A stretch of DNA of 32,431 nucleotides, from positions 1 to 32,431 of the forward strand of contig JAFAYM010000275.1 of assembly GCA_019240395.1 (NCBI GenBank), in the 5' to 3' direction. Source of the DNA: Acidisphaera sp. (GTDB lineage: Bacteria; Pseudomonadota; Alphaproteobacteria; Acetobacterales; Acetobacteraceae). The position numbers and the translations under genes were made by a program. The notes beneath the pieces were generated by a model that was given only the letters and a program-made list of their open reading frames with translations, had not been told where the DNA came from and made no database searches. Below, piece by piece: positions 2,121 through 32,431 of the stretch. Each line of letters opens with the position of its first letter. Position 1 is the first letter of the stretch.

Positions 2121-2208
2121 GAGCGCACTCCGCCTTCAATGTTGCACGACACCGAACACGATTATGGCCGAAGATTCTGGTGGCCGCATCACCGATCTCC
2201 ACGCGCCC

Positions 2209-3009: not shown

Positions 3010-3035
3010 GCGGTCGGCGGGAATGGCGGGGGCGG

Positions 3036-3842: not shown

Positions 3843-4005
3843 CCTGATCTGCTCCCGCTCGTAGCGCGCGGGGATCGTTCCCGACTGTTTCACGCCGGTA
3901 GGACCCGCCCGATCGCACCGGACGCCACGCTCTGCCGACCGCGATTGATTGTCGTCACCGGGCAACTCTGCAAGGATTGGCGCACGCCGACGAAGAGAAA
4001 AGCCC
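3843..4005. promoter_or_regulatory. Divergent intergenic region between permease operon and its ATPase
   Basis: These 163 bases separate two divergent transcription units, so promoters for both must lie here or overlap the gene starts. I see no convincing sigma-70 pair and no copy of the 10-base palindrome found upstream of the monooxygenase. The ATPase frame remains open through the last part of the region, but that predicted leader is arginine-rich and unlike the family N-terminus. Confidence 0.4.
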
Positions 4006-10297: not shown

Positions 10298-11406
10298 ACG
10301 AGATTGCCGCGCCGCGCACTCTCCCACGTGCCGACACGGGCAGCCGGATGGCGATCGCCGACTGCGACATCCATCCGACGCCGAACTCGCTCGCGCATAT
10401 GCAGCGCTACCTGGAACCGCGCTGGCGGCGGCATCTCGACACCTTCGGCGCGCTGCGCCGGCATGGTTGTCTCGGCGGCTCGGCCTACCCGAAGGGCTCG
10501 CCGGGCGCCAACCGGCGCGACGCAGCGCCGCCGAACGGGGCAAAGCCGGGCGGCGATCTCGACTTCATGCGCGCCCAGCATCTCGATCCCAATAACGTGC
10601 AGCTCGGGATCCTCAACATGATCTCGCCGCATCCCGGCGGGGTGCAGAATCCCGGGTTGAGTGCGGCACTTTCGGCGGGGCTGAACGACTGGCAGGTAGC
10701 CGAGTGGACGCTGCATGACAAGCGGCTGCGCGCCTCCGTCCTGGTGCCATACGAGCAGCCAGTCGCCGCCGCGGCCGAGATCGACCGGCGCGCCGGGGAC
10801 GCGAATTTCGCGCAGATCCTGCTGCTGAGCCGCACCGCAGAGCCGCTCGGTCAGCGCCGCTACTGGCCGATCTACGAGGCCGCGGTGCGTGCCGCCCTGC
10901 CCGTCGCCGTGCACGCTTTCGGCTATGGCGGGGCGCCGCTGACCAGCAGCGGCTGGCCCTCCTTCTACATCGAGGAGATGATCGGCCACGCCTCCTGCTG
11001 CCAGTCCGTGCTGACCAGCTTCATCATCGAAGGCGTGTTCGAGCAGTTTCCGGCGCTGCGCGTCATGCTCGTGGAATCCGGCTTTGCCTGGGTACCCTCG
11101 CTCGCCTGGCGGCTGGACAAGAACTGGATGCGACTCAGGGAAGAGAACCCGTGTCTCAAGCGCTTGCCGTCGGAAGTCCTGCACGAGCATGTCTGGTTCA
11201 CCACCCAGCCGATGGAAGAGCCGGAGGAGAGCGCGCACCTGCTCGACGTCATGGAATGGATCGGCTGGGACCGCCTGCTGTTCGCCACTGATTATCCGCA
11301 CTGGGACTACGATGATCCCGCGCGCTGCCTGCCGGTGCCGCTGAGTGCCACGCAAAAGGCGGCTCTGTTCTACGGCAACGCCCGGAGCTTCTTCCGCATG
11401 GATTGA
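10294..11406 (+). CDS. Amidohydrolase-superfamily metal-dependent hydrolase/decarboxylase (ACMSD-like), second of tandem pair
   Basis: This 370-residue paralogue of the preceding gene has the same landmarks: DCDIHPTPN near residues 24-32, VAVHAFGYGG for the central histidine, VESGFAWVPSLAWRLDKNW, and the metal aspartate in FATDYPHWDYDDP. It has a longer N-terminus and an extra stretch after residue 55 (GSAYPKGSPGANRRDAAPP) that the first copy lacks. The ATG overlaps the upstream stop and has a full AAGGAGGT Shine-Dalgarno six bases before it, so the two proteins are probably made together. They may act in sequence or form a heteromer; both are inference. Confidence 0.87.
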   Translation: MNEIAAPRTLPRADTGSRMAIADCDIHPTPNSLAHMQRYLEPRWRRHLDTFGALRRHGCLGGSAYPKGSPGANRRDAAPPNGAKPGGDLDFMRAQHLDPNNVQLGILNMISPHPGGVQNPGLSAALSAGLNDWQVAEWTLHDKRLRASVLVPYEQPVAAAAEIDRRAGDANFAQILLLSRTAEPLGQRRYWPIYEAAVRAALPVAVHAFGYGGAPLTSSGWPSFYIEEMIGHASCCQSVLTSFIIEGVFEQFPALRVMLVESGFAWVPSLAWRLDKNWMRLREENPCLKRLPSEVLHEHVWFTTQPMEEPEESAHLLDVMEWIGWDRLLFATDYPHWDYDDPARCLPVPLSATQKAALFYGNARSFFRMD

Positions 11407-11481
11407 AGCCGGCCAAACGTGCCGTTCGCTGAATGCAGGTGCAAGTGCGGCTTCGATGCCGCGAAATCGGGGAGACGCGTG

Positions 11482-12459
11482 GTGACAGACGTGCCGGTGA
11501 TAGACTTTTCGCCATTCCGGAAAGGCTCCGGCGACGCCAAGGCCAAGGTCGCCGCGGCGATCCGCGCCGCCTGCGAGGGCAGCGGCTTCTTCTATCTCGC
11601 CGGGCACGGCATTCCCGAGGCGGAGGTCGAAGGCATTTTCGCGGCTTCCCGGCGCTTCTTCGCCCTGCCGCTGGAGCAGCGCCTCGCCGTGAAGCTGACG
11701 CCGCGCGAGAATCGTGGCTATCAGCCGCTCGGCTCGCGCATCTATGGCGACAAGGCGGACGCGCCCGACCTGAACGAGAGCTATAAATACCAGCACGAGT
11801 TGCCGCCTGACGATCCGGACATCGTCGACGGCAATCGCGTACATGCCCGCAACCGCTGGCCGGAGGGTCTGCCGGGCTGGCGCGAGACGCTGATCGGTTG
11901 GTACGACCGGATGGAGCAGCTCTCGGACGGGCTGTTGCGCGCCTTTGCGCTGGCGCTTGACCTGGCCGAAGACTATTTCCTCGCCTCCTACCGCAAGCCG
12001 CTGACGCAGATCAACATGCTGCACTATCCGCCACGGCCGGCGGAAACCGTGGGGCGGCAGTTCGGGATTCGGCCGCACTCCGATACCACCGCCTTCACCG
12101 TTCTCGCCCAGGACAATGTCGGCGGGCTGCAGGTCGAGCAACGCGGCGCATGGATCGAGGTGCCGCCGATCCCGGGCACCTTCGTCATCAACATCGGCGA
12201 CATGATGGCGCGCTGGACGAATGACCGCTTCGCCTCCACGCCGCACCGGGTGATCAACCGTTCCGGCGCCGAGCGCTACTCCATTCCGTTCTTCGCGATC
12301 CCGGATTTCGATGCCGTCGTGTCCTGCCTGCCGAGCTGCATGGGGCCAGGCCATCCCGCGAAATACCAGCCGCTGAAGGTCGGCGATTTCATGCAGGACA
12401 GCAACGCCAAAGACTGGAACAAGGCAGCGCTGGCCGGCGCGCTTCCGAAGGCCGGATAG
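11482..12459 (+). CDS. 2-oxoglutarate/Fe(II)-type oxygenase, isopenicillin N synthase family
   Basis: This 325-residue non-haem iron oxygenase has an N-terminal DIOX_N-type region (VPVIDFSPF, then SGFFYLAGHGIP) and a C-terminal double-stranded beta-helix. The iron triad is visible as His199 and Asp201 in RPHSDTTAF and His255 in STPHRV. Arg265-Tyr-Ser267 is the usual RxS motif that binds 2-oxoglutarate. I start it at GTG 11482 because GGGGAG lies seven bases upstream and MTDVPVIDF matches the family start; an ATG at 11419 would add a cysteine-rich leader unlike the family. The family hydroxylates, desaturates or cyclises small molecules. It sits between the amidohydrolases and the amino-acid transporter, so its substrate may be the imported compound or a product of it. 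Confidence 0.9.
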   Translation: MTDVPVIDFSPFRKGSGDAKAKVAAAIRAACEGSGFFYLAGHGIPEAEVEGIFAASRRFFALPLEQRLAVKLTPRENRGYQPLGSRIYGDKADAPDLNESYKYQHELPPDDPDIVDGNRVHARNRWPEGLPGWRETLIGWYDRMEQLSDGLLRAFALALDLAEDYFLASYRKPLTQINMLHYPPRPAETVGRQFGIRPHSDTTAFTVLAQDNVGGLQVEQRGAWIEVPPIPGTFVINIGDMMARWTNDRFASTPHRVINRSGAERYSIPFFAIPDFDAVVSCLPSCMGPGHPAKYQPLKVGDFMQDSNAKDWNKAALAGALPKAG

Positions 12460-12484: not shown

Positions 12485-13339
12485 ATGCGAAACGCCAAGC
12501 GGCAATTGCCGCGCCTCTGCTGCGCCCTGGCGGTCCTTGCCTGCAGTCTGCCCCGTCCGCTGCTCGCCGAGATGATCGGCAATTGCGAGGTGAGCGGGCA
12601 GAAAGGCGCCGACCCGATCACGCCGATGATCCCCGGCCAGCTGACGGTGCGCGCGAACCTGCCGGCACCCGGTTGGTGGAACGGCGACCGGCCGGACACC
12701 GTCAAGGACGGCTACGAATACTGCATGGCGGCCGACATCGCCTATCGCGCCGGCCTCGACAAGGTGGTGGTGGTCTACGCTGCGTGGGCACAGGTGATCG
12801 CCGGCGCGGCGAAGAATTTCGACCTGACGCTCTCCCAGGCTTCGATCACCGAGCCGCGGAAAAAGACGGTGGATTTCTCGGTGCCCTACTTCAGCTCGGA
12901 TATCGGCGTGCTCGTGAAGAAGGGCACGAAGATGAATGCCACCACTATCAAAAACATGCGGCTCGGCGTCTATCAGGGCACGACGGGAGCCGATTTCGTC
13001 ACCACCGTGCTGAAGCCGAATCAGCAGGTGCGCGTCTACCCCAACGTCCCGGCGTTGATGGCGGCGGTGACGGCGGGCCAGATCGACGCGGCGTTGGACG
13101 ACACCGCCGACCTGCTGGGGCAGGCGCAGAAATCCAACGGCCTGTTGGAGGTGGTGGGTCAGTACAAGACCGGCGAGAGCTATGGCGCAATCTATCCGAA
13201 AGGCTCTCCCAACGAGGCCGCCTTCGACAGGATCATCCAATCCTTGAAGGATGACGGCACGCTGAACAGGCTGGCCGGGAAATATCTCGCTGAGGCCTGG
13301 GGCACAGACCCCACCCAGGTTCCCTACTTCGAGCCGTGA
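12485..13339 (+). CDS. Polar amino-acid ABC transporter substrate-binding protein (SBP_bac_3), copy 1
   Basis: This 284-residue periplasmic protein has a Sec signal peptide (hydrophobic core LCCALAVLACSL, cleavage probably after LLA near residue 28). The mature protein starts with the cysteine-containing GNCEVSGQKG motif. The bilobal SBP_bac_3 fold is shown by AADIAYRAGL, FDLTLSQASITEPRKKTVDFSVPYF and GQIDAALDDTADLL. Cys34 and Cys80 could form a disulfide. The start has GGAGGA six bases upstream. It heads a binding protein-permease-ATPase set, and a very similar second copy lies at 18074-18946. Ligands of the family are amino acids and related compounds; whether it prefers an acidic amino acid is suggested only by the neighbouring ammonia-lyase gene. 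Confidence 0.93.
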   Translation: MRNAKRQLPRLCCALAVLACSLPRPLLAEMIGNCEVSGQKGADPITPMIPGQLTVRANLPAPGWWNGDRPDTVKDGYEYCMAADIAYRAGLDKVVVVYAAWAQVIAGAAKNFDLTLSQASITEPRKKTVDFSVPYFSSDIGVLVKKGTKMNATTIKNMRLGVYQGTTGADFVTTVLKPNQQVRVYPNVPALMAAVTAGQIDAALDDTADLLGQAQKSNGLLEVVGQYKTGESYGAIYPKGSPNEAAFDRIIQSLKDDGTLNRLAGKYLAEAWGTDPTQVPYFEP

Positions 13340-13372: not shown

Positions 13373-14512
13373 ATGCGTGCGGAAGATAGTCCGGCGCGGG
13401 ACGTGGCGGACGGTGGTAATCAGGGCGGGCAACGCTTTCGCGTCGGCGCGCCGCCGCCCAGCGTCACGCGACTCTGCGGCGCCGCTTTGGCGGTGGCCGG
13501 GCTCGTCGTCGTCGCGAGCTGGGCCACGCTGCGCGATCTGCGTGCGGCGCTGCAGACGCTCGGGCAGGCCGGCGCGATCGCCGACACGCTGCTCCTGCTG
13601 CTCGGCATGGCCGCTATCGCCCTGATCGTGCCGGGTGCGCGCAGCCTGCTGCTGGCGCGCCGGGCCGATACCGCTCTGGCGCAGGGCGACGTGATCGGGG
13701 CCCGGGTGGCGGCGTCGGCGGCGCGCAACCTCGCCTGGATCACCTTCGGCTACGCGGCGGCGCAGATCCTGGGGCTGCTGGCCATCGAGTTCCTGATCGC
13801 CAACGATCTCGCCGTCAGCCGCACCTTCTTCCTGCTGCCGCTGATCGAAAGCTCCTTCTTCCTCATCCTGCGGGCATTCTGGATCAACGTTGCCATTTTC
13901 ATGATTGCCGAAGTGCTGGTGCTGATCTGGGGCCTCGTCGTCGCCCTTGCGCGGCTGGCGCCGGGGGCGGCGGGCCGGCCGATCCGCCTGATCGCCACCT
14001 TCTACGTGGACGTATTTCGCGGCCTGCCGGCGATCATCAACATCTATCTCATCGGCTTCGGCATTCCGCTTACCGGCTTGCCGATCCTGAAGGGCATGTC
14101 GCAGGAGGCGTTCGCCGTCCTGGCGCTCACCCTGACCAACGGAGCCTACGTGGCGGAGGTCTATCGCGCCGGCATCGAGAGCATACATTGGAGCCAGACT
14201 GCGGCGGCGCGCTCGCTCGGCCTGTCATATATGCAGACATTGCGGTACGTCATCGTGCCGCAAGGCGTACGACAGATCATCCCGCCGCTGCTCAACAACT
14301 TCATCGGTCTGCAGAAGGACACGGCGCTGGTGAACGTGATCGGTACGATCGACGCCTTCAACCAGTCGATCATCGTCGCCAGCAACAACTTCAATCTTTC
14401 GGCAGTGACGACGGTGGCCGCCCTGTTCGTGCTGATCACGATCCCGCAGGCCCGCTTGGTCGACAGCATGGTGGCGCGTGACCGCCGGCGCATGCGCACC
14501 GGTGCGGGATAA
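13373..14512 (+). CDS. Polar amino-acid ABC transporter permease with extended membrane N-terminus
   Basis: This is an inner-membrane permease of the HisM/GlnP family. The canonical domain occupies roughly residues 160-379, with FYVDVFRGLPAIINIYLIGFG and the EAA loop EVYRAGIESIHWSQTAAARSLGLS. At 379 residues it is far longer than the usual 220-250. The first 155 residues hold about three additional hydrophobic segments (near 33-50, 64-84 and 115-137) joined by an Ala/Arg-rich stretch. It is the only permease gene in this set, so it probably works as a homodimer. The ATPase gene follows after five bases. No strong Shine-Dalgarno is close to the ATG at 13373, although GGGGGAG lies about 15 bases upstream, so the exact start is less certain. 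Confidence 0.88.
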   Translation: MRAEDSPARDVADGGNQGGQRFRVGAPPPSVTRLCGAALAVAGLVVVASWATLRDLRAALQTLGQAGAIADTLLLLLGMAAIALIVPGARSLLLARRADTALAQGDVIGARVAASAARNLAWITFGYAAAQILGLLAIEFLIANDLAVSRTFFLLPLIESSFFLILRAFWINVAIFMIAEVLVLIWGLVVALARLAPGAAGRPIRLIATFYVDVFRGLPAIINIYLIGFGIPLTGLPILKGMSQEAFAVLALTLTNGAYVAEVYRAGIESIHWSQTAAARSLGLSYMQTLRYVIVPQGVRQIIPPLLNNFIGLQKDTALVNVIGTIDAFNQSIIVASNNFNLSAVTTVAALFVLITIPQARLVDSMVARDRRRMRTGAG

Positions 14513-14517
14513 CGGGG

Positions 14518-15261
14518 ATGGCGCTGATCGAGATCCGCGGCATCCACAAGCACTTCGGCAACCATCCCGTGTTCACGGCACTGGATCTGGAGGTCGAGGA
14601 GCACCAGGTAGTCTGCCTGATCGGTCCCTCCGGCTGCGGCAAATCGACGCTGCTTCGCTGCATCAACGGTCTGGAGGAGATCGACGGCGGCGAGATCCGC
14701 ATCGACGGCGATCGCATCACCGGCCCGGGCGTGGACGTGAACGCGCTGCGGCGCGAGGTCGGCATCGTCTTCCAGAGCTACAATTTGTTCCCGCACATGA
14801 CCGTGCTGGAGAATGTCATGCTGGCGCCGACGCGTGTGCTGCGGCAGCCGCACGACGCGGCGGCAGCGACGGCAATGGGCCTGCTTCGGCGCATCGGGCT
14901 GGAGGCGAAGGCGCGCGAATATCCGGACCGGCTTTCCGGCGGCCAGCAGCAACGGGTGGCGATCGTGCGCGCGCTGGCGATGGAGCCGCGCGTGCTGCTG
15001 CTCGACGAGATCACCTCGGCGCTCGATCCCGAGCTGGTGGCGGAGGTGCTGAACATCGTCCGCGACCTGGCCGCCGAAGGCATGACGATGCTGCTGGCGA
15101 CGCACGAAATGGGATTTGCCCGGGAAGTCGCGGCAAAGATCTGCTTCCTGTGTGACGGTGTCGTGCATGAGGAGGGTCCGCCGGCGGAAATCTTCGGCGC
15201 GCCGCGGCGGGAGCGGACGCGCATGTTTCTCCGACGAATCATCGAAGCCGGGCGGCTGTAG
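14518..15261 (+). CDS. Polar amino-acid ABC transporter ATP-binding protein (GlnQ/HisP type)
   Basis: This 247-residue cytoplasmic ATPase energises the importer formed with the preceding permease. Walker A is GPSGCGKST (36-44). The Q-loop follows at FQSYNLFPHMTVLENV, the signature is LSGGQQQR, Walker B is VLLLDEITSALDPE and the switch histidine is in LATHEMGFA. The length is normal for the GlnQ family, with no C-terminal regulatory domain. The Walker B segment reads DEITSALDPE where DEPTSALDPE is more usual. It ends 21 bases from the stop of the convergent MmgE/PrpD gene. Confidence 0.94.
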   Translation: MALIEIRGIHKHFGNHPVFTALDLEVEEHQVVCLIGPSGCGKSTLLRCINGLEEIDGGEIRIDGDRITGPGVDVNALRREVGIVFQSYNLFPHMTVLENVMLAPTRVLRQPHDAAAATAMGLLRRIGLEAKAREYPDRLSGGQQQRVAIVRALAMEPRVLLLDEITSALDPELVAEVLNIVRDLAAEGMTMLLATHEMGFAREVAAKICFLCDGVVHEEGPPAEIFGAPRRERTRMFLRRIIEAGRL

Positions 15262-15282: not shown

Positions 15283-16701
15283 TCACTCCGCGGCCACCGC
15301 GTAGGGGCGGGAGGCGAAACGCTCACCCCGATCGCTCCCGGCGGCGAACCGCAGATGCCGCATCAGCCCGCGCACGCTGCGGACACGCTCGATGTCGGCA
15401 ACCGCATCGCGCAACGCGGCATAGCTCGCTTGCGGCAGCATTCCCGCTGCGCAATCGCGGAACTTCGCCGTCAGCTCCGCCGGGCTGAAAGGCCGGAACA
15501 TCGTCCCACGTGCGTGCTGTACTGTCGTGTGCAAAATGCGTCCATTCTTCAACCGCACGGTCACCTCCGCCGGCCTGCGCGCCTCCGGTGCCTCGGCATC
15601 GCCGCGCGGATGCGTCTGCATGCGAATGAGTGGAAACAATCTCCGCACCTCCGGCCGGTGCACGGCCGCCGGCGTGAAATCCGCCAGATCGAGCCCGCCC
15701 TTCAGCAGCGCCGCGGCGATGCAATACTGCATGCTGAACCGCGCCTCCATTTCCTGCACCGGTTCCGGATAGAGCAGGCTGCTGGCATTGCCCCAGCCCA
15801 CGAGGGTGTCGACCTCCGCCACGTCGTCTGCCTGGAACCGGTGCTCCGCCTGCAACTCCAGCAGACCGTCGAGTGCTCGATGCGCACCGGCGCAGCACGG
15901 ATAGTATTTCGGTTCCAGACCGTATTTCTCGACCGCGAGCTTCTGTCCCAGCCCGTCGAGAACACCGTCCCAGCCGCGGGAGTCCCATCCGACGTAAAGC
16001 TCCCGGAATCCGTACTTCCCGTCCAGCGGCTCCGGTGCCGCCGTAAGGCCGGCGGCGGCGAGCCTGGCCGCGACCACCGCATTCTTCGCGGCCATGCCGG
16101 CGTGAAACGGCTTGGCCATCGTTCCGAACTGCGCCTTCGTGCCGGACGCCATGCTGAAACCCAGGCTGACGGCGTTGCGCATCGCCGCCGCGTCGAGCCC
16201 GAGCAGCCGTCCGCACCCCGCAGCGGCGCCGATCGTGCCCACTGTCGAGGTGGCATGCCAACCGTTGTCATAGTGCAGCCGGTTGACACCATGTCCGACC
16301 GCCACCTGGATTTCGATGCCGACCAGCCATGCGCGCACGAGGTCGCTACCACTCGCGTCCACCTCCTCGCCGAGCGCCAGCAGCGCCGGCAGGATCACCG
16401 CGGAGGGATGCGTCATCGCGTAATGGATGTTGTCGTCGTAATCCAGCACGTGCGCCGCCATGCCGTTGGCGAGCGCGGCCCAGGGCGCGGCGGCCGGCTC
16501 GGTCGATCCGACCACCGTTGCCGGACCGCTGCCCCAGCCCGCGACAACGGCGCGTACCCGGGCGGCGCCCTCATCGCCGGCACCGGCGATCATGCAGGAG
16601 ATGGTGTCGTGCACCGCCTCGCGCGCCCACCGCCCCGCCGCCTCGGATGCAACGCCGTCCCACGTCGCCGCCCACTCCGCCAGCCCCGCCGTGACGTCCA
16701 T
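15283..16701 (-). CDS. MmgE/PrpD family protein
   Basis: This 472-residue protein belongs to the family of 2-methylcitrate dehydratase PrpD, cis-aconitate decarboxylase and iminodisuccinate epimerase, which abstract a proton next to a carboxylate. Family landmarks seen are LDYDDNIHYAMTHPS (active-site region with conserved His), GWHATSTVG, the lysine in MAKPFHAGMAAKN, CCAGAHRALDGL and FSMQYCIAAALL. The ATG at 16701 follows GGAG at a spacing of about eight bases; the frame runs on upstream but only as a shadow of the divergent gene. It shares a 93-base divergent promoter region with the methylaspartate ammonia-lyase homologue, which suggests a joint pathway, with this protein acting on a dicarboxylate or amino dicarboxylate. 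The precise reaction cannot be assigned. Confidence 0.9.
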   Translation of the reverse strand: MDVTAGLAEWAATWDGVASEAAGRWAREAVHDTISCMIAGAGDEGAARVRAVVAGWGSGPATVVGSTEPAAAPWAALANGMAAHVLDYDDNIHYAMTHPSAVILPALLALGEEVDASGSDLVRAWLVGIEIQVAVGHGVNRLHYDNGWHATSTVGTIGAAAGCGRLLGLDAAAMRNAVSLGFSMASGTKAQFGTMAKPFHAGMAAKNAVVAARLAAAGLTAAPEPLDGKYGFRELYVGWDSRGWDGVLDGLGQKLAVEKYGLEPKYYPCCAGAHRALDGLLELQAEHRFQADDVAEVDTLVGWGNASSLLYPEPVQEMEARFSMQYCIAAALLKGGLDLADFTPAAVHRPEVRRLFPLIRMQTHPRGDAEAPEARRPAEVTVRLKNGRILHTTVQHARGTMFRPFSPAELTAKFRDCAAGMLPQASYAALRDAVADIERVRSVRGLMRHLRFAAGSDRGERFASRPYAVAAE

Positions 16702-16728
16702 CGCCGTTACTCCACTGCCCTCCGCAAT

Positions 16729-16758
16729 TTGACCCGGTTCGGAGCAGTTGACTATACG
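16729..16758 (+). promoter_or_regulatory. Sigma-70-like promoter for the ammonia-lyase homologue
   Basis: TTGACC at 16729-16734 and TATACG at 16753-16758 are separated by 18 bases. This places a transcript start near 16765 and a short leader before the GGAGAGG ribosome site at 16781-16787 and the ATG at 16795. It is the best plus-strand promoter match I found in the window. The region is shared with the divergent MmgE/PrpD gene, so regulation may affect both. Confidence 0.55.
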
Positions 16759-16794
16759 AGTGGATGAAGCCCACAGGCCGGGAGAGGCAGCGGA

Positions 16795-18042
16795 ATGATC
16801 ATCCGTGATCTGGTCTGCACCGCCGTTCGTTCCGGCTACTTCAACAAGGACCTCCTGGCAATCAAGCGTGGCCCTGAGGCGGACGGCTTCGCCTATCGCG
16901 GCGCGCCGGTCAGCCCGGGCTTCGAGCAGATCATCCAGCCGGGTGAAGCCATTTCCGTGATGCTCGTGCTGGAGGACGGGCAGGTCGCGACCGGCGATTG
17001 CGTCGATGTCATCCTCGCCGGCCTCGCCGGGCGTGACCCGGTCTTCCGCGCCGCCGACCATCTTCCGCTGCTGCGCACCATGCTGCGCGACACGCTGCGT
17101 GGCCGTGCCATCGACCGTTTTCGTCCGCTCGCCGAGGAGATCGAGGAATTTCGGCAGGACGGAGCGAAGCTGCACACCGCGCTGCGCTACGGGCTGAGCC
17201 AGGCGCTGCTGCGCGCGGCGGCCCTCGCCCATCGCGTCACCATGGCCGAGATCATCGCCGCCGAATATGGCTGCGCGGTGGCGGAAACGCCGGTTCCCCT
17301 GCTGGCCTCCTGCATCACGCACGACTACGACCAGATCGACCGCATGATCCTCAAGCGGCTGGAGCTTCTGCCGCACGCCTCCTTTCATATTCCCGAACGC
17401 GATCTCGGACCGGAGGGCGGGAAGCTGCTGGAGTACGGCCGCCGTCTCGCGCAACGCGTCCGGGCGCTCGGCGGTGCCGAGTACCGCCCGCGCATCCATC
17501 TCGACGTGTACGGCACGATCGGCGAGCTCTTCGAGAGGGATATCGGGCGCATCGTTGATTATCTCGGACGGCTTGCGCAGGCGGTCACGCCGCTCGACCT
17601 GCTGATCGAGACGCCGATTCTGGCGGAGTCGCAAGCCGCGCAGATCGCGACCTTCCAGGAGCTGCGGCAGGCCCTGCGCCGTGCCGGCCACGCGGTCGCC
17701 ATCATCGCCGACGAATGGTGCAACACGCTCGACGACATCCGCGCCTTCGCCGCCGCCGAGGCGACGGACTATGCGCAGGTCAAGACGCCCGATCTCGGCG
17801 GCATCGGCAACACCATCGAGGCGCTGCTCTATTGCCGGCAGGTCGGGCTGGGCAGCTATATCGGCGGCAGCGGCAACGAGACCGACCACTCGGCGCAGGT
17901 CTGCGCCCATGTGGCGCTCGCCTGCCAGGCCGACTTCCTGCTCTCCAAGCCCGGCTTCGGCGGCGACGAAGGCGTGATGATCGAAAGCAACGAGATGCTG
18001 CGCGCCCTGGCGTTGATCGCCACGCGCGCGGAGAGGCGATGA
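16795..18042 (+). CDS. Methylaspartate ammonia-lyase homologue with altered substrate pocket (enolase superfamily)
   Basis: Methylaspartate ammonia-lyase converts L-threo-3-methylaspartate to mesaconate and ammonia. This 415-residue protein aligns along the whole Clostridium tetanomorphum enzyme (413 residues). Catalytic residues are kept: Lys330 in QVKTPDLGG (clostridial Lys331) and His194 in LPHAS. The magnesium ligands are also kept: Asp237 in HLDVYGT, Glu272 in IETP and Asp306 in ADEWCN. Substrate contacts differ: Gln73 is Ile73, Gln172 is Ser172, Thr360-Cys361 are Ser359-Gly360 and Phe170 is Leu170. Gln329, Tyr356 and Leu384 are retained. An active lyase with a different specificity is the likely reading. 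The ATG has GGAGAGG seven bases upstream. No glutamate mutase gene is visible to supply methylaspartate. Confidence 0.88.
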   Translation: MIIRDLVCTAVRSGYFNKDLLAIKRGPEADGFAYRGAPVSPGFEQIIQPGEAISVMLVLEDGQVATGDCVDVILAGLAGRDPVFRAADHLPLLRTMLRDTLRGRAIDRFRPLAEEIEEFRQDGAKLHTALRYGLSQALLRAAALAHRVTMAEIIAAEYGCAVAETPVPLLASCITHDYDQIDRMILKRLELLPHASFHIPERDLGPEGGKLLEYGRRLAQRVRALGGAEYRPRIHLDVYGTIGELFERDIGRIVDYLGRLAQAVTPLDLLIETPILAESQAAQIATFQELRQALRRAGHAVAIIADEWCNTLDDIRAFAAAEATDYAQVKTPDLGGIGNTIEALLYCRQVGLGSYIGGSGNETDHSAQVCAHVALACQADFLLSKPGFGGDEGVMIESNEMLRALALIATRAERR

Positions 18043-18075
18043 CCGGGAATGATCCCGGCCATCGCGCCCGGGATC
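18043..18075. terminator. Bidirectional hairpin between convergent genes
   Basis: The 31-base gap between two convergent stops contains two overlapping stems. One is CCGGGA-atga-TCCCGG at 18043-18058. The other is GATCCCGG at 18051-18058 pairing with CCGGGATC at 18068-18075 across a nine-base loop. They share an arm and so cannot form together. There is no T-run on either strand, so classical intrinsic termination is uncertain; the structure could serve transcripts from both sides. Confidence 0.45.
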
Positions 18076-18946
18076 AGGGTTTCAGGTACGGAACCTTGGT
18101 CGGATCCGTGCCCCAGGCGGCAGCCAGATATTTGGACGCCAGCTTGTCCAAGGTGCCGTCGGCCTTCATCTCGCCGATGATCTTGTCGAAAGTTGCCTCG
18201 TTCGGCGAGCCCTTCGGGTAGACGGCGCCATAGGTCTCGCCGGTGCTGTACTGCCCGGCCACCACCAGCGCGCCATTCGACTTCGAGGCATAGGCGAGCA
18301 TGTAGGCGGTGTCGTCCGCCGCCGCGTCGATCTGGCCGGCATTCAGCGCCGCCAGCATCGCCGGCACGTTGGGATAGACTTGCACCTGCTTGGTCGGCTT
18401 CAGCGTGTCGGCGATGAAGTCGCCCCCGGTGGTGCCCTGGTGCACGCCGATGCGCAGGTCCTTGGCCGACGCGCTGTCGACCATCGTGCTCTTCTTCACG
18501 AGAAGCGCGATGTCGGAGTTGAAGTAGGGCACGGAAAAGTCCACCACCTTCTTGCGCGGCTCGGTGATGGAGGCCTCGCTGAGCGCGAGGTCGAAGTTCG
18601 TGGTATGGCCGCCGATCAGCTGCGCCCAGGAGACGTTGACCACGGCGAGCTTGCTGAGACCGGTGCGGTAGGCGATCTCCGCGGCCATGCAGTATTCGTA
18701 GCCGTCCTTGATGGTGTCCGGCGTGTCGCCGTTCCACCACCCCGGCGCCGGCAGACTGACCTCCACCGTCAGCTGTCCAGGCGTCGCCGGGGTGATGTGA
18801 TAGGAGCCCTTCTGCCCGGACAGCTCGCAATTTCCGAAGGTCTGGGCGCCGGCGGCCTGTGCGAAGCCGAACAGCAGCACGGCAGCAGCGGCGCGCAGGC
18901 CGAAACGCCGCGCGATGCAAGCGCCACCTGATCGACAAGTCATCAT
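18074..18946 (-). CDS. Polar amino-acid ABC transporter substrate-binding protein (SBP_bac_3), copy 2
   Basis: This 290-residue periplasmic protein has a Sec signal peptide (LRAAAAVLLFGFAQAAGAQ) and then TFGNCELSGQKG. It is a close paralogue of the protein at 12485-13339: in the block LPAPGWWNGD through IAYR.GL, 29 of 33 residues are identical, and the ends GTDP-T-VPY also match. No permease or ATPase adjoins it, so it probably delivers ligand to the same permease encoded at 13373-14512. Two adjacent ATGs (18946 and 18943) follow GGGAGG; the second has better spacing (five bases rather than two). The two copies may widen the ligand range of one importer. It converges with the ammonia-lyase homologue. 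Confidence 0.93.
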   Translation of the reverse strand: MMTCRSGGACIARRFGLRAAAAVLLFGFAQAAGAQTFGNCELSGQKGSYHITPATPGQLTVEVSLPAPGWWNGDTPDTIKDGYEYCMAAEIAYRTGLSKLAVVNVSWAQLIGGHTTNFDLALSEASITEPRKKVVDFSVPYFNSDIALLVKKSTMVDSASAKDLRIGVHQGTTGGDFIADTLKPTKQVQVYPNVPAMLAALNAGQIDAAADDTAYMLAYASKSNGALVVAGQYSTGETYGAVYPKGSPNEATFDKIIGEMKADGTLDKLASKYLAAAWGTDPTKVPYLKP

Positions 18947-19081: not shown

Positions 19082-19900
19082 CTATTCCCGGAACTGTTCG
19101 CCGCGCCACTTCAACGCTGCCCCAAGCCCCTCTGCCCGCGTGATCTCCTTGAACTTCATCCCCGCTTCCGTCTGGGCGGCATAGAGCGGCGCCACCACGT
19201 CCAGCCCCGCCTGCATGGCGTTGCGGAAGCCCGCGACGTCGGCGCCGCGGCTGATCGACAGCTTCGTCGCGACCAGCGCCTCGGGCGAGACCAGCGCGAG
19301 CCGGTTCGCATAGGCGAGGGTTGCCTCGCGCAGGCGATCCAGCGGGACGATGCGATTGATCATGCCAAAGCGCAGCGCCGTCTCGGCATCGATCAGGTCG
19401 CCGAAATACAGCAGCTCGCGGGCGCGCTTGTAGCCGATGATCCAGGGCATGACGATGCCCGGGCCGGTGTTGGAGAAGCGCACCTCCGGCTCGCCGAACA
19501 TGGCGTTGTCGGCGGCGATGGTCAGATCGCAATACATCGCCAGCTCGCAGCCGCCGCCGACCGCGTGGCCCTGCACGGAGGCGATAACCGGCTTGCGCAT
19601 GTACCAGGGGATCATCTCGAAGGCGAGCTGCGGCGTCAGGTGGGCGTGCCAGCGCAGCGCGTCGTGGCGCCAGGAATCGCGGCTGGGGTCGACGCCGCCG
19701 ATATCGTAGCCGGCGCAGAAGCTGCGGCCTTCCGCGCGGAGGATGACGACGCTGGTGGCCGGATCGTCGTCGGCGCGGACGAAAGCCTGCACGAGGTGCT
19801 CGCGCAGCTCCTTGCTGAGCGCGTTGAGCTTGGCCGGCCGGTTCATGGTGATGACGCCGACCGCGCCGTCCGTCTCGTAGAGGACCAGATCTTCGCTCAT
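19082..19900 (-). CDS. Enoyl-CoA hydratase/isomerase family protein
   Basis: This 272-residue crotonase-fold protein handles acyl-CoA thioesters. The oxyanion-hole segments are SFCAGYDIGG (near residue 61) and QGHAVGGGCELAMYCD. The latter carries the first catalytic glutamate position of crotonase, and FGEPEVRF supplies a glutamate at the second. Hydration of an enoyl-CoA is therefore possible, but the family also contains isomerases, dehalogenases and hydratase-lyases. The ATG at 19900 overlaps the stop of the NDP-forming synthetase by four bases (ATGA), so the two are translationally coupled and this enzyme probably acts on the thioester that enzyme makes. It is the last gene of the operon starting at 26029. 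It is related to the crotonase at 26123-26938. Confidence 0.9.
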   Translation of the reverse strand: MSEDLVLYETDGAVGVITMNRPAKLNALSKELREHLVQAFVRADDDPATSVVILRAEGRSFCAGYDIGGVDPSRDSWRHDALRWHAHLTPQLAFEMIPWYMRKPVIASVQGHAVGGGCELAMYCDLTIAADNAMFGEPEVRFSNTGPGIVMPWIIGYKRARELLYFGDLIDAETALRFGMINRIVPLDRLREATLAYANRLALVSPEALVATKLSISRGADVAGFRNAMQAGLDVVAPLYAAQTEAGMKFKEITRAEGLGAALKWRGEQFRE

Positions 19901-22005
19901 GCTTCGCTCCCGGGTATGGGGTTGGCCGCCGGCTCCAGCACCAGGTCGACGCCGACCGCGCCCTGTCCCGCCTCGCGCACGATCAGCGGGTTGATCTCGA
20001 TCGCGGCGAGCTGGCCGGTGGTAGCGCAGGCGAAGCGCGACAGGGCGACGATCGCGCGAATTGCGGCCTCGCGATCGAACGGTCCCTTGCCGCGCGTGCC
20101 CGCCAGCAGCGCGGCGGCCTTCGTCTCGCCCAGCATTTCCGCCGCCATGGCCGCATCCACCGGACCGATCCGCAAACTGGTCTCGCCCATCACCTCGACC
20201 AGGGTGCCCCCGAGTCCGACGACGATGATGGAGCCGAATTGCAGATCGTTGCGCGCCCCGATCAGCAACTGCACGCCGTCAACCATCGGCTGCACGATCA
20301 CAGCCGCCTGGGCATCGCCCGTGGCGTGGCGGTGCAGGGCAGCTTCCAGCGACCCATACGCGGAGCGCACACCCGCTTCGTCGGCAATGCCGAGCCGGAC
20401 CAGGCCCAGCTCCGTCTTGTGCGGCAGCTGGGCGGAGACGCCCTTCAGCACGACGGGGAAGCCGAGCCGCCGGGCGATCCTGACAGCGTCGTCCGCATCC
20501 TGCGCCACGACGGACTCGACGAAGGTGAGTCCGCCCTGCGCCACGAGCGCCATGCGCTCGGTTTCGCCGAGATCGTGCAGCGGCGGCACCGCGATACGCG
20601 GCACTTCCACCACCGGCGGAACGGGCGAGAGCTTCAGCCAGCGCGCCATCGCCGCCAGTCCCGGACGCATGCCCAGCAGGTAGGGAATGCCGTGCGGATC
20701 GACGGCTTTCCGGACCGCTTCATTCACCCCGCCGGGGGCGGTGTTATTGATGAAAAGCACTTTCTTGTCATGCGTCGGTGCCGCCGCGATCGCGACTGCG
20801 GCCATATCCACCGCGACATGGCCGTCGGCTCCGTCGCCACCCGGCGCGTCCACTGCGAGGGCAATCACGCCGGCTTCCGGCTCGCCGAGCAGAGCGTGGA
20901 AAATCTGCTTGAAGCGCTCGGCGTCCCACCCCAGCCCCCAGGCATCGACAGGATTGCGTGGCCGGGAGAAGGCCGGGAAGGCCGGCTTCATCGCCGCAAG
21001 CGTAGCAGGGCCGAGGCGGGCGAATTCGAGGCCGAGATCGGCGCCGAGATCGTCCACCAGCGCTGCCTCGCCACCCGACACGGTGACGACGATCGCCTGC
21101 CGCTTCGCCGGCGGCACCGGGTATTTCGACAGCAGCATGGCGGTCTCGACCATCTCGTCGATGTCGTCGGCGCGCACGATGCCGTTGCGGCGGAAGAACG
21201 CATCATACACCGCGTCCTCGCCGGACAGCGCACCGGTATGCGCGGCGACGGCGGCGCGCCCGCCCTCCGTGCGTCCTACCTTCAAGGCGATGATCCGCTT
21301 GCCTCGCCTGGCCGCCTCGGCAGCCGCTTCGGCGAAGCGCTGGGGGTTGCGGATCGTCTCGAGGAACAGCATGACGACGCGCACCCGGTCGTCACGTACC
21401 ACGGCGTCCAGATAGTCCGCGGCCGTGCAGACCGCTTCGTTGCCCGCGGTGATGAGATAGGCGAGGCCGAGGCCGCGCGGATCCTGGCTGATGGCGATAG
21501 CCACCGAACCGCTTTGCGAAATGACGGCCGCCGGGCCAGGGTTGATGCGCGGCAGCCGGCCGGCGGTCCACATGCAGACGTGGTCATGGGCGTTGATGAA
21601 CCCCATGTTGTTCGGCCCACACACCGCCATGCCGGCGTGTTCCGCGGCCTCGCGCAGGCGCTGCTGCAGAGCCTCGCCGTCGGCGCCGCTATCGGCGAAG
21701 CCGCTGGCGTTCACGATGGCGGCGCGGATACCGCAACGCCCCGCTTCCTCGATGGCGGCAACCGTGTGCTCGGCGGCGATGGCGACGAACACCGCATCCG
21801 GCGTGGCTGGCAGCGCCGTGAGCGACGGATAACAGCGCTGCCCGCCGATCTCGTCGTAGCGCGGATTGACCAGGTGGATCGGCCCGGAAAACTCCAGCGC
21901 GCGCAGGTTCCTGCGCACCCGCATGGCGGCCACGCCCTCGCGCGGCGAGGCGCCGACGATGGCGACGGACTTCGGGGACAGGAGTGGGCCGAGGTCGAGC
22001 GACAT
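19897..22005 (-). CDS. NDP-forming acyl-CoA synthetase (acetate-CoA ligase family), complete
   Basis: This is a 702-residue single-chain carboxylate-CoA ligase. The CoA-binding domain starts at KSVAIVGAS (12-20), followed by the flavodoxin-like succinyl-CoA ligase domain with the phospho-histidine candidate His256 in AHTGALSGED. A second ligase-like domain (about 300-450) and a C-terminal ATP-grasp domain follow, with FPVVLKGVSAQLPHKTELG, SIIVVGLGGTLVEVMGETS and AIEINPLIV. The order matches the fused alpha-beta form, which includes ADP-forming acetyl-CoA synthetases and FerA-type feruloyl-CoA synthetase. It starts six bases after the binding-protein stop and overlaps the crotonase gene, so the operon couples import, CoA activation and hydration. 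The acid substrate is unknown. Confidence 0.93.
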   Translation of the reverse strand: MSLDLGPLLSPKSVAIVGASPREGVAAMRVRRNLRALEFSGPIHLVNPRYDEIGGQRCYPSLTALPATPDAVFVAIAAEHTVAAIEEAGRCGIRAAIVNASGFADSGADGEALQQRLREAAEHAGMAVCGPNNMGFINAHDHVCMWTAGRLPRINPGPAAVISQSGSVAIAISQDPRGLGLAYLITAGNEAVCTAADYLDAVVRDDRVRVVMLFLETIRNPQRFAEAAAEAARRGKRIIALKVGRTEGGRAAVAAHTGALSGEDAVYDAFFRRNGIVRADDIDEMVETAMLLSKYPVPPAKRQAIVVTVSGGEAALVDDLGADLGLEFARLGPATLAAMKPAFPAFSRPRNPVDAWGLGWDAERFKQIFHALLGEPEAGVIALAVDAPGGDGADGHVAVDMAAVAIAAAPTHDKKVLFINNTAPGGVNEAVRKAVDPHGIPYLLGMRPGLAAMARWLKLSPVPPVVEVPRIAVPPLHDLGETERMALVAQGGLTFVESVVAQDADDAVRIARRLGFPVVLKGVSAQLPHKTELGLVRLGIADEAGVRSAYGSLEAALHRHATGDAQAAVIVQPMVDGVQLLIGARNDLQFGSIIVVGLGGTLVEVMGETSLRIGPVDAAMAAEMLGETKAAALLAGTRGKGPFDREAAIRAIVALSRFACATTGQLAAIEINPLIVREAGQGAVGVDLVLEPAANPIPGSEA

Positions 22006-22011
22006 GGTGGT

Positions 22012-23163
22012 TCAGGACTGGATCCAGGTCTCGAACCGCATCGTCAGCTCGTCGTAATGGTCCACCCACCAATCATAGTTGACAAGCAGCGAGACGTTCG
22101 CGTTGGCGGGATAGGAGGGAAGCTGGCGTGCCAGCTTTTCGTCGATGAGATCATAGGCTTTCAGGTTGGTCGGCCCGTAATACAGGGCACGGGCGAAAGC
22201 CGCCTGCGGCTCGGCGCGTCCGACGAAGTCCAGCAGCTTCATGCCGCCGTCGGGGTTGGGGCAGTTGCGCAGCAGGAACCAAGCCTCCACGTCGCCGTTG
22301 TAGCACGCCTGGTTCCAGACGATGTCGTAATGCGCACCATGATTGTTGATGGAGTCGCTGGCGCGCCCGTTCCAGGCCATGCAGAGATCGACCTCCTCGT
22401 CCTGCATGAATTGCTGCGGCTCGGTGCCGCTCGACCACCACGTCTTGATATGCGGCTTGATCTGGTCGAGCTTCCTGAAAGCGCGATCCACGTCGAGCGG
22501 GTACATTTTCGCGGGGTCGGCGGGAACGCCGTCCGCCATCAGCGCGGCTTCGAGCGTGGTCAGGCAGCGGCGCTGCAGCGAGCGCGGCCCGGGATAGCGC
22601 TGGATGTCCCAGAAATCCGCCCAGGAATTCGGGTGGTCCTCGCCCGGCCATTTCTTCTTGTTGTAGACCATCAGTGTCGAGAGGGTGATCGCGCCGATGG
22701 CGTTGGCGTATTTCAGCTGACCCGGCGAGAGTGCCGAGCGGTCGATCACCTTCCAGTCGAGCGGCGCGTTCATGCCGAAGCGGACCAGCCGTGGCGTGTC
22801 GATCGATCCGGCCTCGATCACATCGACCTGCTGCTGCTTTGCCATGTCCATCGCCCGCACCTTGTTGAAATCATACGGCGCGATGTAGCGGACGGCGTTG
22901 CCGGTCTTCTCCGTCCATGGCTTGAAGAAGGCCGTCTCCATCGCCGCCTGCCAGGCGCCGCCCCAGCCGAGCGTGGTGACCGGCTTCTGCTCGGCTGCGT
23001 CGGCATTGCGGGCTTCGATCAGCCCGACGAAGGAGCCGAGCAGCGCCGAGCCGGCAGCCGCCTGGCCGAGCCGGCGCAGGAAGGCGCGGCGATCCAGATG
23101 CCGGGTCTCCTCCAGAACCCGCCGCAATGTGGCGAGTGCAGCGTCTGTCTCGTTGTCGGCCAT
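22012..23163 (-). CDS. Spermidine/putrescine-type ABC transporter substrate-binding protein, second system
   Basis: This 383-residue PotD-like periplasmic protein has a twin-arginine signal (DRRAFLRRLGQAAAGSALLGSF, about residues 24-45) preceded by an unusually long polar n-region. Mature sequence includes TTLGWGGAWQAAMETAFFKPW and the family element YPLDVDRAFRKLDQIKPH. The ATG at 23163 has GGAGG seven bases upstream, itself part of a CCTCCGGAGG palindrome. It lies 21 bases after the PotC-like stop in a complete A-B-C-D order. It resembles the binding protein at 1044-2120, which also precedes an NDP-forming acyl-CoA synthetase. A carboxylate rather than a polyamine ligand is suggested by that repeated association, but this is inference. 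Confidence 0.9.
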   Translation of the reverse strand: MADNETDAALATLRRVLEETRHLDRRAFLRRLGQAAAGSALLGSFVGLIEARNADAAEQKPVTTLGWGGAWQAAMETAFFKPWTEKTGNAVRYIAPYDFNKVRAMDMAKQQQVDVIEAGSIDTPRLVRFGMNAPLDWKVIDRSALSPGQLKYANAIGAITLSTLMVYNKKKWPGEDHPNSWADFWDIQRYPGPRSLQRRCLTTLEAALMADGVPADPAKMYPLDVDRAFRKLDQIKPHIKTWWSSGTEPQQFMQDEEVDLCMAWNGRASDSINNHGAHYDIVWNQACYNGDVEAWFLLRNCPNPDGGMKLLDFVGRAEPQAAFARALYYGPTNLKAYDLIDEKLARQLPSYPANANVSLLVNYDWWVDHYDELTMRFETWIQS

Positions 23164-23184
23164 GATCGTTCCTCCGGAGGTTTG

Positions 23185-23985
23185 TCAGGCGTGTGCGACG
23201 GTTCGTACCGGCCGGCTGCGGCGATTCGCCAGCATCACCGTCACCAGGCCGAGGATGACGAGCAAGGTCACGGACGTGGTTGCGGCGGCGATGGACGGGT
23301 CGATCGCGACCCGCACCCCTTCCCACAGTTTCACTGCGAGCGGCTTCTGCAACGTGCTGAGGACGAAGATCGCGATCAGCAGTTCCTGGGCCGACTGCAT
23401 GAAGGCGAACACCGCGCCGACGATGATCGCCGGGGCGATGATCGGGAGGGTGACGCCGAACACCGCCCGCACCGGCGAGGCGCCGTGGATCGTCGCCGCC
23501 CGTTCGATGTCGCGGTCATAGCCGGCCAGGCTCGCCACCACGTTGATCACCACGAAAGGAATGCCCGAGACCGTGTGCGCGAAGGCCAGGCCCGGGATGG
23601 TGTTCAGCAGACCGAGCGGCACATAGTAGAGATAGATCGCCAGCGCCTTGATCACCGAGGGCGTCACCAGGGCGGCGAGCACCAGCGCATTCAGCATTCC
23701 CCGGCCCCGTGTGACGTGACGCGAAAGCGCGAAGGCCGCCGGCACCCCGAGCAGGGTCGAGAGCAACGCGGTCAGCGCGCCGACCTGCGCCGTCACCCAG
23801 AACGCGTCGATCCACTGCCAATCCGAAAAGATGGTGCGATACCAGCGCAGCGAGAGGCCGGGCGGCGGAAACGACAGGAAATCGACCGAGCTGAACGAGA
23901 TCAGCACGACAACCAGCACCGGGAACAGCAGGAACAGCAGGACCAACCCGGTCACGCCCTTCAGCGCGGCACTCCCCACCCTCAT
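23185..23985 (-). CDS. ABC transporter permease, PotC-like, second system
   Basis: This 266-residue inner-membrane permease starts MRVGSAALKGVTGLVLLFLLFPVLVVVLISF with one long helix, and carries the PotC-type segment GLSLRWYRTIFSDWQWIDAFW. The EAA loop is ERAATIHGASPVRAVFGVTLPIIAP. The ATG at 23985 overlaps the PotB-like stop by four bases (ATGA), which fixes the start; longer frames upstream are shadows of the PotB gene. It works with the permease at 23982-24878 and the ATPase at 24875-26029. Confidence 0.9.
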   Translation of the reverse strand: MRVGSAALKGVTGLVLLFLLFPVLVVVLISFSSVDFLSFPPPGLSLRWYRTIFSDWQWIDAFWVTAQVGALTALLSTLLGVPAAFALSRHVTRGRGMLNALVLAALVTPSVIKALAIYLYYVPLGLLNTIPGLAFAHTVSGIPFVVINVVASLAGYDRDIERAATIHGASPVRAVFGVTLPIIAPAIIVGAVFAFMQSAQELLIAIFVLSTLQKPLAVKLWEGVRVAIDPSIAAATTSVTLLVILGLVTVMLANRRSRPVRTVAHA

Positions 23986-24878
23986 CGTGCTACCCCGCCG
24001 AGCATGCGGTCGAGGCGGAAAAAGCGGCTGTACACCAGCAGCAGGCACGTGGTCACCACGAGCAGGAGAGCGCCCGCCGCGCTGGCAAGCGGCCAGTCCA
24101 ACAGATCGCTCGCAATCACCATGATGGTCTGCGAGATCATGGTCTGCTCCGGGCCACCCAGCAGCGCCGGCGTGACGTAGAAGCCGAGCGCGGAGACGAA
24201 CACCAGCAGGCCGGCGGCATAGATCCCCGGCAGGCTGAGCGGCAGGAACACCGTGAGGAAAGCGCGCCAGCGGCTGGCGCCGTGAATGGCGGCGGCGTCG
24301 ACCAGCCGCAGATCGATGCGCAGCATCGCACTGAACAAGGTCAGGATGGTGAGCGGCAGCAGTATCTGCACCATGCCGAGGCAAACGCTGAAGAGGTTGT
24401 ACAGCAGCGGCAAGGCGCCCTCGGAAAATCCTAGTCCGACGACAAGCTGGTTGATCAAACCATGCCGACCCAGAAGGATCATCCAGGAGTAGCTTCGCAC
24501 GATCAGGTCGAGCCAATAGGGCAGCACCACGAGCACCAGCAGCAGCTTGCGCAGGGCCGGCCGGCAGGTGGTCAACATATAGGCGACGGGATAGCCGAGC
24601 AGCAGCGAGCCGGAGGTCGTGATGAGGCAGATCTTCAGTGTCGTCAGCAGGACTTTCCGATAGATCGGCGACGTCAGGATGGCGGCATAGGGCGCGAGGC
24701 CGCGTTCCGCAAAGCTCTCCCAAATCATCAGCGCGGTGGGCAGGATGAAGAATGCGACTATCCAGAGCAGCATGGGCGCCAGCAGCACCATGGCCAGCAT
24801 ACCCGGATCGTCAATCCGGCGTCGCGACACTCTTCCGGGCTGGCCGGAGACATAGGCAGGCAGCACGTTTGCCGTCAC
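23982..24878 (-). CDS. ABC transporter permease, PotB-like, second system
   Basis: This 298-residue inner-membrane permease has a first helix at MLAMVLLAPMLLWIVAFFILP and the EAA loop VDAAAIHGASRWRAFLTVFLPLSLPG. The start is placed at GTG 24878, which overlaps the ATPase stop in a GTGA arrangement and gives a short cytoplasmic leader before the first helix. The open frame continues upstream only as a shadow of the ATPase gene. The four-base overlaps at both ends indicate tight translational coupling of the A-B-C genes. Confidence 0.88.
   Translation of the reverse strand: MTANVLPAYVSGQPGRVSRRRIDDPGMLAMVLLAPMLLWIVAFFILPTALMIWESFAERGLAPYAAILTSPIYRKVLLTTLKICLITTSGSLLLGYPVAYMLTTCRPALRKLLLVLVVLPYWLDLIVRSYSWMILLGRHGLINQLVVGLGFSEGALPLLYNLFSVCLGMVQILLPLTILTLFSAMLRIDLRLVDAAAIHGASRWRAFLTVFLPLSLPGIYAAGLLVFVSALGFYVTPALLGGPEQTMISQTIMVIASDLLDWPLASAAGALLLVVTTCLLLVYSRFFRLDRMLGGVAR

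Positions 24879-30209: not shown

Positions 30210-30210
<1 letters not shown>
29803..30210 (-). CDS. atpC: F1 ATP synthase epsilon subunit
   Basis: This 135-residue epsilon subunit of the F1 central stalk regulates ATP hydrolysis and links gamma to the c-ring. The N-terminal beta-sandwich is recognisable (LEIVSPEKLLLSREVEMVVIPAYEGELGVLEGHSPMI), and the C-terminal part is helical. The start is the ATG at 30210, which overlaps the beta stop by one base (TGATG); an adjacent upstream TTG would add one residue and is less likely. It is the last atp gene and ends in the structured gap described at 29742-29761. Confidence 0.96.

Positions 30211-32431
<2,221 letters not shown>

Follow-up and report, generated by a model that had tools for sequence, protein, structure and literature searches.

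The window analyzed here is a stretch of 32,431 nucleotides from Acidisphaera sp. (contig JAFAYM010000275.1). A gene of the methylaspartate ammonia-lyase (MAL) family lies at 16795..18042 on the plus strand as an open reading frame of 415 residues with an ATG start, preceded by a Shine-Dalgarno-like GGGAGAGG (16780..16787, plus strand; read by eye). A MmgE/PrpD-family gene (15283..16701, minus strand) is its divergent neighbor, with 93 bp between the two start codons. This gene encodes MmgE_PrpD_N and MmgE_PrpD_C domains and its start was placed by eye; a codon-usage gene caller fuses it with antisense sequence (15283-17910). The plus strand also encodes an amino acid-type ABC importer composed of a family-3 solute-binding protein (12506..13339; a start at 12485 is possible), a permease (13493..14512; a start at 13373 is possible), and an ATPase (14518..15261). 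A second family-3 solute-binding protein gene (18074..18946, minus strand) is convergent with the lyase gene.

The lyase contains the Pfam domains MAAL_N (207 bits) and MAAL_C (331 bits). Phmmer searches matched it to the C. tetanomorphum enzyme (CtMAL, 1kcz) with E = 1.3e-114 and to the C. amalonaticus enzyme (CaMAL, 1kko) with E = 4.7e-103. An AlphaFold model with a mean pLDDT of 94.3 has the solved MALs as its best structural relatives (Z 56.8-59.5, rmsd 1.3-1.9, 44-46% identity). The match to 1kko has a Z of 59.5 and an rmsd of 1.3 over 410 aligned residues, the first non-MAL match scores Z 30.6, and dipeptide epimerases of the enolase superfamily are among those ranking next. The domains and the end-to-end match of the predicted enolase-superfamily fold identify the window protein as a member of the MAL family. 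The NCBIfam equivalog model TIGR01502 gives it 451 bits (cut-off 286), so automatic annotation would name the protein methylaspartate ammonia-lyase, as the sequence-only reading had foreseen. Two same-branch relatives in Rhizobium sp. 007 carry this annotation. The ordinary MAL label is very probably wrong for the window protein, which belongs to a separate branch of the family lacking the residues that hold the substrate amino group and probably cuts a different amino acid-like nutrient.

Relatives were collected as 80 loci from one genome-contig scan, and more came from whole-genome and plasmid searches. L001 (a copy of the window) and L002 (a weak partial match to another protein) were left out throughout, and the fragments L087 and L092 were excluded before the tree and the residue tallies. 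The final alignment held 99 sequences. In a careful tree, a branch with a bootstrap of 100 and an SH-aLRT of 100 separates 34 of these, the window protein included, from the other 65. The split was retained with an SH-aLRT of 97 in a quick tree computed without 24 trait columns. Both trees are unrooted, so "clade" refers to one side of a branch, here called I/V73 for its residue at position 73, and placement is less sure for long rows such as L038_1591 and L029. CtMAL is the sole characterized enzyme in the tree and sits opposite the 34 sequences across the 100/100 branch. The window protein is thus not grouped with the proven MAL, a result that leaves the sequence-only reading standing.

Judged by title and kinship, clade members are proteobacterial except for one Myxococcota sequence (L029). 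Paralogues are often multiple: G148 and Chelativorans sp. J32 have four apiece, and G879 and Aquamicrobium sp. LC103 have three, with the three G879 genes fitting within 9 kb. A search of 147 genomes (the host and 146 relatives) located a clade gene in the host only, the other match being weak and partial. Four of 385 genomes from the host's class gave a match at E ≤ 1e-20, and three of them (the host, G148, and G288) hold clade members. The I/V73 subfamily was not found in the titles and abstract openings covered by a literature search, which is weak evidence because subscription papers mostly fell outside that coverage. Armatimonadota loci L082, L089, and L093 represent another odd MAL branch with T73 and G170, and glutamate mutase was not found in the stretch available for these loci.

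Alignment to CtMAL has no gaps until about residue 226, beyond which the Ct number equals the window number plus 1. The window protein keeps the catalytic His194 (17374..17376, plus strand), the three magnesium ligands D238, E273, and D307, Q329, and the catalytic K331 (window residue 330; 17782..17784, plus strand), which confirms the proposal of intact catalytic machinery. The replacements listed in the sequence-only reading are all correct. Codons 71-73 (17005..17013) specify Asp-Val-Ile, with the acidic residue 71 that is typical of the clade and Ile for Gln73; codons 170-172 (17302..17310) specify Leu-Ala-Ser, so that Phe170 becomes Leu and Gln172 becomes Ser; and codons 359-360 (17869..17874) specify Ser-Gly in place of Ct Thr360-Cys361, all on the plus strand. 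The changes relative to CtMAL are therefore Q73I, F170L, Q172S, T360S, and C361G. A study of CaMAL proposes that Gln172 contacts the substrate amino group directly and Gln73 does so through a water molecule, with Tyr356, Leu384, and Phe170 forming the methyl pocket (PMC7241714). This account agrees with the earlier designation of Gln73 and Gln172 as substrate contacts. Y356 and L384 of the methyl pocket are present in the window protein and variable among clade members.

The full catalytic set (Lys331, His194, Asp238/Glu273/Asp307, and Gln329) is present in 34/34 clade rows, window included. Position 73 is Ile in 29 rows and Val in 5; position 172 is S, M, G, T, or C, with Gln in 0/34; and position 361 is A, G, L, Y, S, or V, never Cys, in 33 rows (one row ends earlier). 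The other branch has Q172 and C361 in 65/65 rows and Q73 in 61/65. Leu replaces Phe170 in 32/34 clade rows. The Thr360-Cys361 change divides into two parts, with the loss of C361 extending across the clade and T360S failing as a distinguishing feature because Ser occupies position 360 in 17/65 rows of the other branch. Additional clade markers went unmentioned in the sequence-only reading. Residue 71 is acidic in 33/34 rows (31 Asp, 2 Glu, and 1 Gln) and is A, S, or G in the other branch. R47, D175, R177, and L196 are each found in 65/65 rows of the other branch and are absent from 34/34 clade rows. G174 (retained in 3/34 clade rows) and M389 (3/33) are mostly lost, and Met389, like Tyr356 and Leu384, varies within the clade. 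Nine more places in longer stretches, partly the same genes refetched, have I73, L170, S or G at 172, and a complete catalytic set. Judged from the alignment, this pattern across all clade rows is not the drift of a single gene. The amino-group side of the pocket is gone, which weighs against efficient 3-methylaspartate turnover.

No mesaconate-pathway or glutamate mutase genes were found in the window. The glutamate mutase E gene was detected at 0/28 clade loci versus 45/65 other-branch loci, using a query from L095, itself one of the 65, and leaving out the short loci L003-L008 (of which L005 belongs to the other branch). At least one of glutamate mutase E, CaiB-type CoA transferase, CoA ester (citramalyl-CoA) lyase, and fumarase/mesaconase was found at 1/31 clade loci versus 57/69 others, and the lone clade match was a weak CaiB (29%) in L097. 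The 69 include four loci picked for their annotation (L095 and L124-L126), three of which, all but L124, supplied queries, and without the four the count is 53/65; several of the other-branch misses are short or truncated loci. This comparison left out L001-L004, L006-L008, and L101-L118, as well as L031 and L038, which duplicate longer stretches; within the 31 clade loci, L120 and L121 share one contig and L122 and L123 share one genome. Whole-genome searches with PF06368 (glutamate mutase E) gave no match in 19/22 clade genomes, the host among them, and 451-458 bits in the three others (the genomes of L017, L018, and L022). The same model matched 19/23 other-branch genomes with best scores of 684-780 bits, leaving four without a match.

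Firmicutes supply most of the other-branch loci, many of which are short, so the contrast in context is partly taxonomic. Four plasmid genes from Sinorhizobium, Ensifer, Gemmobacter, and Mesorhizobium address this point. All have Q73, Q172, and C361 and all are accompanied by a CaiB-family CoA transferase and a CoA ester lyase; two also have glutamate mutase and three a fumarase-type gene. Proteobacteria thus carry the ordinary MAL system, which reduces the taxonomic confound and does not remove it.

A MmgE/PrpD gene lies within 3 kb of the lyase at 7/28 clade loci (the window, L016, L017, L018, L021, L029, and L100), a lower bound, like all neighbor counts here, because the gene caller was trained on lyase genes and overlooked several annotated L094 genes. 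Gene numbers in 20 clade genomes predict 0.36 such cases over 25 places. Three of the seven loci are one operon type and hence not independent; counted as lineages there are four against 0.26 expected, with a 75-gene genome excluded (P about 2e-4). That genome, G833, which contains L017, has 75 MmgE/PrpD matches in 5.7 Mb; the host genome has eight MmgE/PrpD genes. The same two queries detected MmgE/PrpD at 0/65 other-branch loci, and it was not found at 21/28 clade loci within the stretch available for each. The partner is not one orthologue, since the window and L018 proteins are only 33% identical.

The best PDB match of the window MmgE/PrpD protein is iminodisuccinate (IDS) epimerase (213 bits over ~420 residues), which shares this family with methylsuccinate isomerase; the match is distant and does not establish the neighbor as the same enzyme. 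The L018 protein scores higher with IRG1-type proteins than with IDS epimerase. Known MmgE/PrpD substrates are described as having a common 1,4-dicarboxylate backbone and include iminodisuccinate, an N-substituted aspartate (PMC12290011). Iminodisuccinate or EDDS was considered as the specific substrate based on the MmgE/PrpD neighbor and the several Chelativorans paralogues. It was kept as a candidate only, given the distant epimerase match, the L018 protein nearer to the IRG1 type, and a literature search that gave no sequence link.

Transport genes are a second feature of the clade loci. Family-5 (peptide, nickel, opine type) binding proteins were detected, within the stretch available for each locus, at 13/28 clade loci and 0/65 others with two queries; a family-5 importer was not found in the window. 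L018, L021, and L100 share a gene run of lyase, binding protein, MmgE/PrpD, and OppB. In L018 and L100 this run extends further into OppC and ATPase genes; the L021 contig stops inside OppB. Two clade genes of Rhizobium sp. 007 are located near an octopine dehydrogenase-family gene, an aminotransferase, an MFS gene, and a peptide-type ABC importer. Genes for enoyl-CoA hydratase and ADP-forming acyl-CoA ligase occur at the window, L016, and L097.

The original observation is right and stronger than first noted, and an N-substituted substrate, as the sequence-only reading suggested, is the best supported interpretation. The base pair and metal site are kept, so the enolase-type first step would survive, and the loss of the Gln73/Gln172 pair makes plain ammonium an improbable leaving group at C2. 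Together, the import genes and the MmgE/PrpD partner suggest uptake of a decorated 1,4-dicarboxylate that may be epimerized before it is cleaved. Loss of the two residues that hold a free amino group, combined with an acidic residue 71, would suit an N-substituted aspartate. Our best reading, held tentatively and a little short of an even chance, is that the window protein is a catabolic C-N lyase for an imported, N-substituted amino dicarboxylate that works in partnership with an importer and a MmgE/PrpD protein. This reading draws directly on the modeled fold, the catalytic set, the branch, the pocket changes, the missing pathway neighbors, and the importer and MmgE/PrpD association; from these we infer the elimination chemistry, the N-substitution, the order of steps, and the role of Asp71.

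In the proposed sequence, the neighboring ABC transporter (family-3 binding protein, permease, and ATPase) would import an amino-1,4-dicarboxylate, a task that an Opp/Nik-type family-5 system would perform in many relatives. The divergent MmgE/PrpD protein may set the right stereoisomer or otherwise process the dicarboxylate. Lys331 (or His194) would take the C3 proton to form a Mg-bound aci-carboxylate, and a substituted amine, rather than ammonia, would depart from C2 to give fumarate (or a substituted fumarate) plus the amine. Asp71 is a candidate for the new amine anchor, and the variable positions 172, 356, 361, and 384 may tune the paralogues to different substituents. The gene context fits an N-substituted substrate in its opine, peptide, and amino acid importers, its MmgE/PrpD genes, and the octopine dehydrogenase-family gene of Rhizobium sp. 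007. Several observations count against it. Ile73 is no smaller than Gln, the MmgE/PrpD partner varies between loci, is one of eight such genes in the host and was not found at most clade loci, no family-5 importer was found in the window, and the difference in gene context is partly taxonomic. The CoA ligase and enoyl-CoA hydratase neighbors would also fit a product needing CoA activation better than plain fumarate.

These CoA-dependent neighbors, together with an ectoine-type (Doe) context in some relatives, keep in play an ammonia-lyase for another 3-substituted aspartate, such as 3-hydroxyaspartate from hydroxyectoine-type compounds, a substrate with a free amine for which the pocket would have changed on its C3 side. 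Chelativorans, G879, Aquamicrobium, and Propylenella have 2-3 clade paralogues with DoeA-type and DoeB-type genes, class-III aminotransferases, and aldehyde dehydrogenases, although no DoeB match was found in the Propylenella stretch. Two clade genes in G879 are part of one same-strand run with DoeA (659 bits; cut-off 613), DoeB (521 bits; cut-off 402.7), and a class-III aminotransferase, and the third clade gene and aldehyde dehydrogenases are close to this run. One Aquamicrobium run consists of an Ehu-like binding protein (172.5 bits; cut-off 190.9), the lyase, and DoeB-like and DoeA-like genes that both score below their cut-offs, followed by amino acid importer-like permeases and an ATPase. 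The Phyllobacteriaceae loci L119, L120-L121, and L123 contain 2-3 lyase paralogues with DoeA/DoeB-type genes, aldehyde dehydrogenases, class-III aminotransferases, and an OYE-type flavoprotein. The pocket is also compatible with a change at C3, with Leu at position 170 in nearly all members and residues 356, 384, and 389 variable, and one study reports that the L384A and L384G variants of MAL admit large C3 substituents (PMC4517298). However, an altered C3 substituent leaves the loss of both amino-group contacts in every member unexplained, Tyr356 and Leu384 are still present in the window protein, and no Doe genes were found in the window. A DoeB-like gene also adjoins two Q73-type MALs (L012 and L013; 64-972), so the Doe link is not peculiar to the clade. 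We consider a 3-substituted aspartate with a free amine unlikely. A plain ectoine-pathway role was rejected on the Q73-type loci and the lack of a Doe match in the window. The host does have a DoeA that scores 803 bits, above the curated cut-off, on another contig (C280:10209-11372). The host also has a second DoeA-like gene (397 bits, C161:2-1117).

A non-nitrogen leaving group, or no elimination at all, is distinctly unlikely. The enzyme would then be an O- or S-succinyl lyase, for example, or an epimerase using the same Lys/His pair. Both nitrogen contacts have become non-polar or small residues with the Lys/His pair kept, and dipeptide epimerases are among the next structural matches past the MALs. 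Against this, the fold and catalytic set are MAL-like, as the gap in Z scores between 1kko and the first non-MAL match shows, and no examined neighbor suggests thioethers or ethers. That the protein remains an ammonia-lyase for 3-methylaspartate or aspartate, working in another setting with tolerated pocket changes, is very unlikely: the TIGR01502 score, the unchanged fold and catalytic residues, and the native-like kinetics of T360S and C361S in CaMAL (C361A lowers efficiency about sixfold) favor it, but in the same study Q172A alters Km considerably and Q172N may leave almost no activity (PMC7241714), the host lacks a glutamate mutase E match, no mesaconate-pathway gene was found in the window, and there are as many as four clade paralogues per genome.

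The N-substituted reading can be compared with several known systems. The window protein is like methylaspartate ammonia-lyase (EC 4.3.1.2; 1kcz and 1kko) in family, fold, magnesium ligands, and the Lys/His pair. It differs at Gln73, Gln172, Cys361, and residues invariant in the other branch, sits on a separate branch, and lies at a locus where neither glutamate mutase nor mesaconate genes were found. Position 73 is also one that has been altered in the laboratory (3zvh) among engineered MALs (Q73A and L384A; 3zvh and 3zvi). The Q73A variant reportedly accepts a wider range of amines, and engineered MALs that make N-substituted aspartic acids are, by title, said to be the subject of published work. 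The clade has a natural Ile or Val at this position plus the loss of Q172 and an acidic residue 71; Ile and Gln are similar in size, so the smaller-residue precedent cited in the sequence-only reading is not directly transferable. EDDS lyase and iminodisuccinate C-N lyase belong to the fumarase/aspartase superfamily, and the latter has a reaction type like that proposed here. The EDDS lyase of Chelativorans sp. BNC1 likewise resembles the window protein in proposed reaction type, as it joins amines to fumarate to yield N-substituted aspartates (PMC12363623). The window protein does not have the fold of these lyases and models as an enolase-superfamily member, a distinction made by fold. Ectoine catabolic clusters (DoeA, DoeB, and an Ehu-type importer) have Phyllobacteriaceae clade paralogues in or beside them, unlike the window with its lack of Doe genes.

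For the I/V73 branch as a whole, it is possible, if doubtful, that it constitutes an unrecognized class of enolase-superfamily C-N lyases. Such enzymes would naturally release amines from opine-, chelator-, or osmolyte-like N-substituted amino dicarboxylates, with their own importers and a MmgE/PrpD epimerase, and paralogues differing at 172, 356, 361, and 384 would cut different substrates. If so, nature has evolved within the MAL fold the N-substituted aspartate chemistry known from EDDS lyase and engineered MAL, and the curated equivalog TIGR01502 gives a whole multi-copy subfamily one wrong function. These amino dicarboxylates would then be a new nutrient class with a recognizable proteobacterial uptake and cleavage system, and the clade would offer ready-made biocatalysts for N-substituted aspartates, now obtained through engineered MAL or EDDS lyase.

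Other genes of note lie elsewhere in the window. An NtaA/DmoA-family FMN monooxygenase (5217-6557, plus strand; TIGR03860 557 bits, cut-off 280) adjoins a GntR/FCD regulator. It was considered as a chelator-degrading partner and rejected since its best solved relatives are YtnJ and MoxC, EDTA monooxygenase scores 232 bits, and the family is too general. Ahead of the amino acid importer lies a tandem pair of Amidohydro_2 genes, and a 2OG-Fe(II) oxygenase-type gene comes after the pair (9239-12459 in all, plus strand). Two similar modules (1-5079 and 19897-26008) each encode an ADP-forming acyl-CoA ligase, a family-8 type binding protein, permeases, and an ABC ATPase, and their ligases and binding proteins share similarity clusters. 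ATP synthase alpha/beta-type and gamma-type subunit genes (30210-32430, minus strand) are located at the border of the catabolic stretch.
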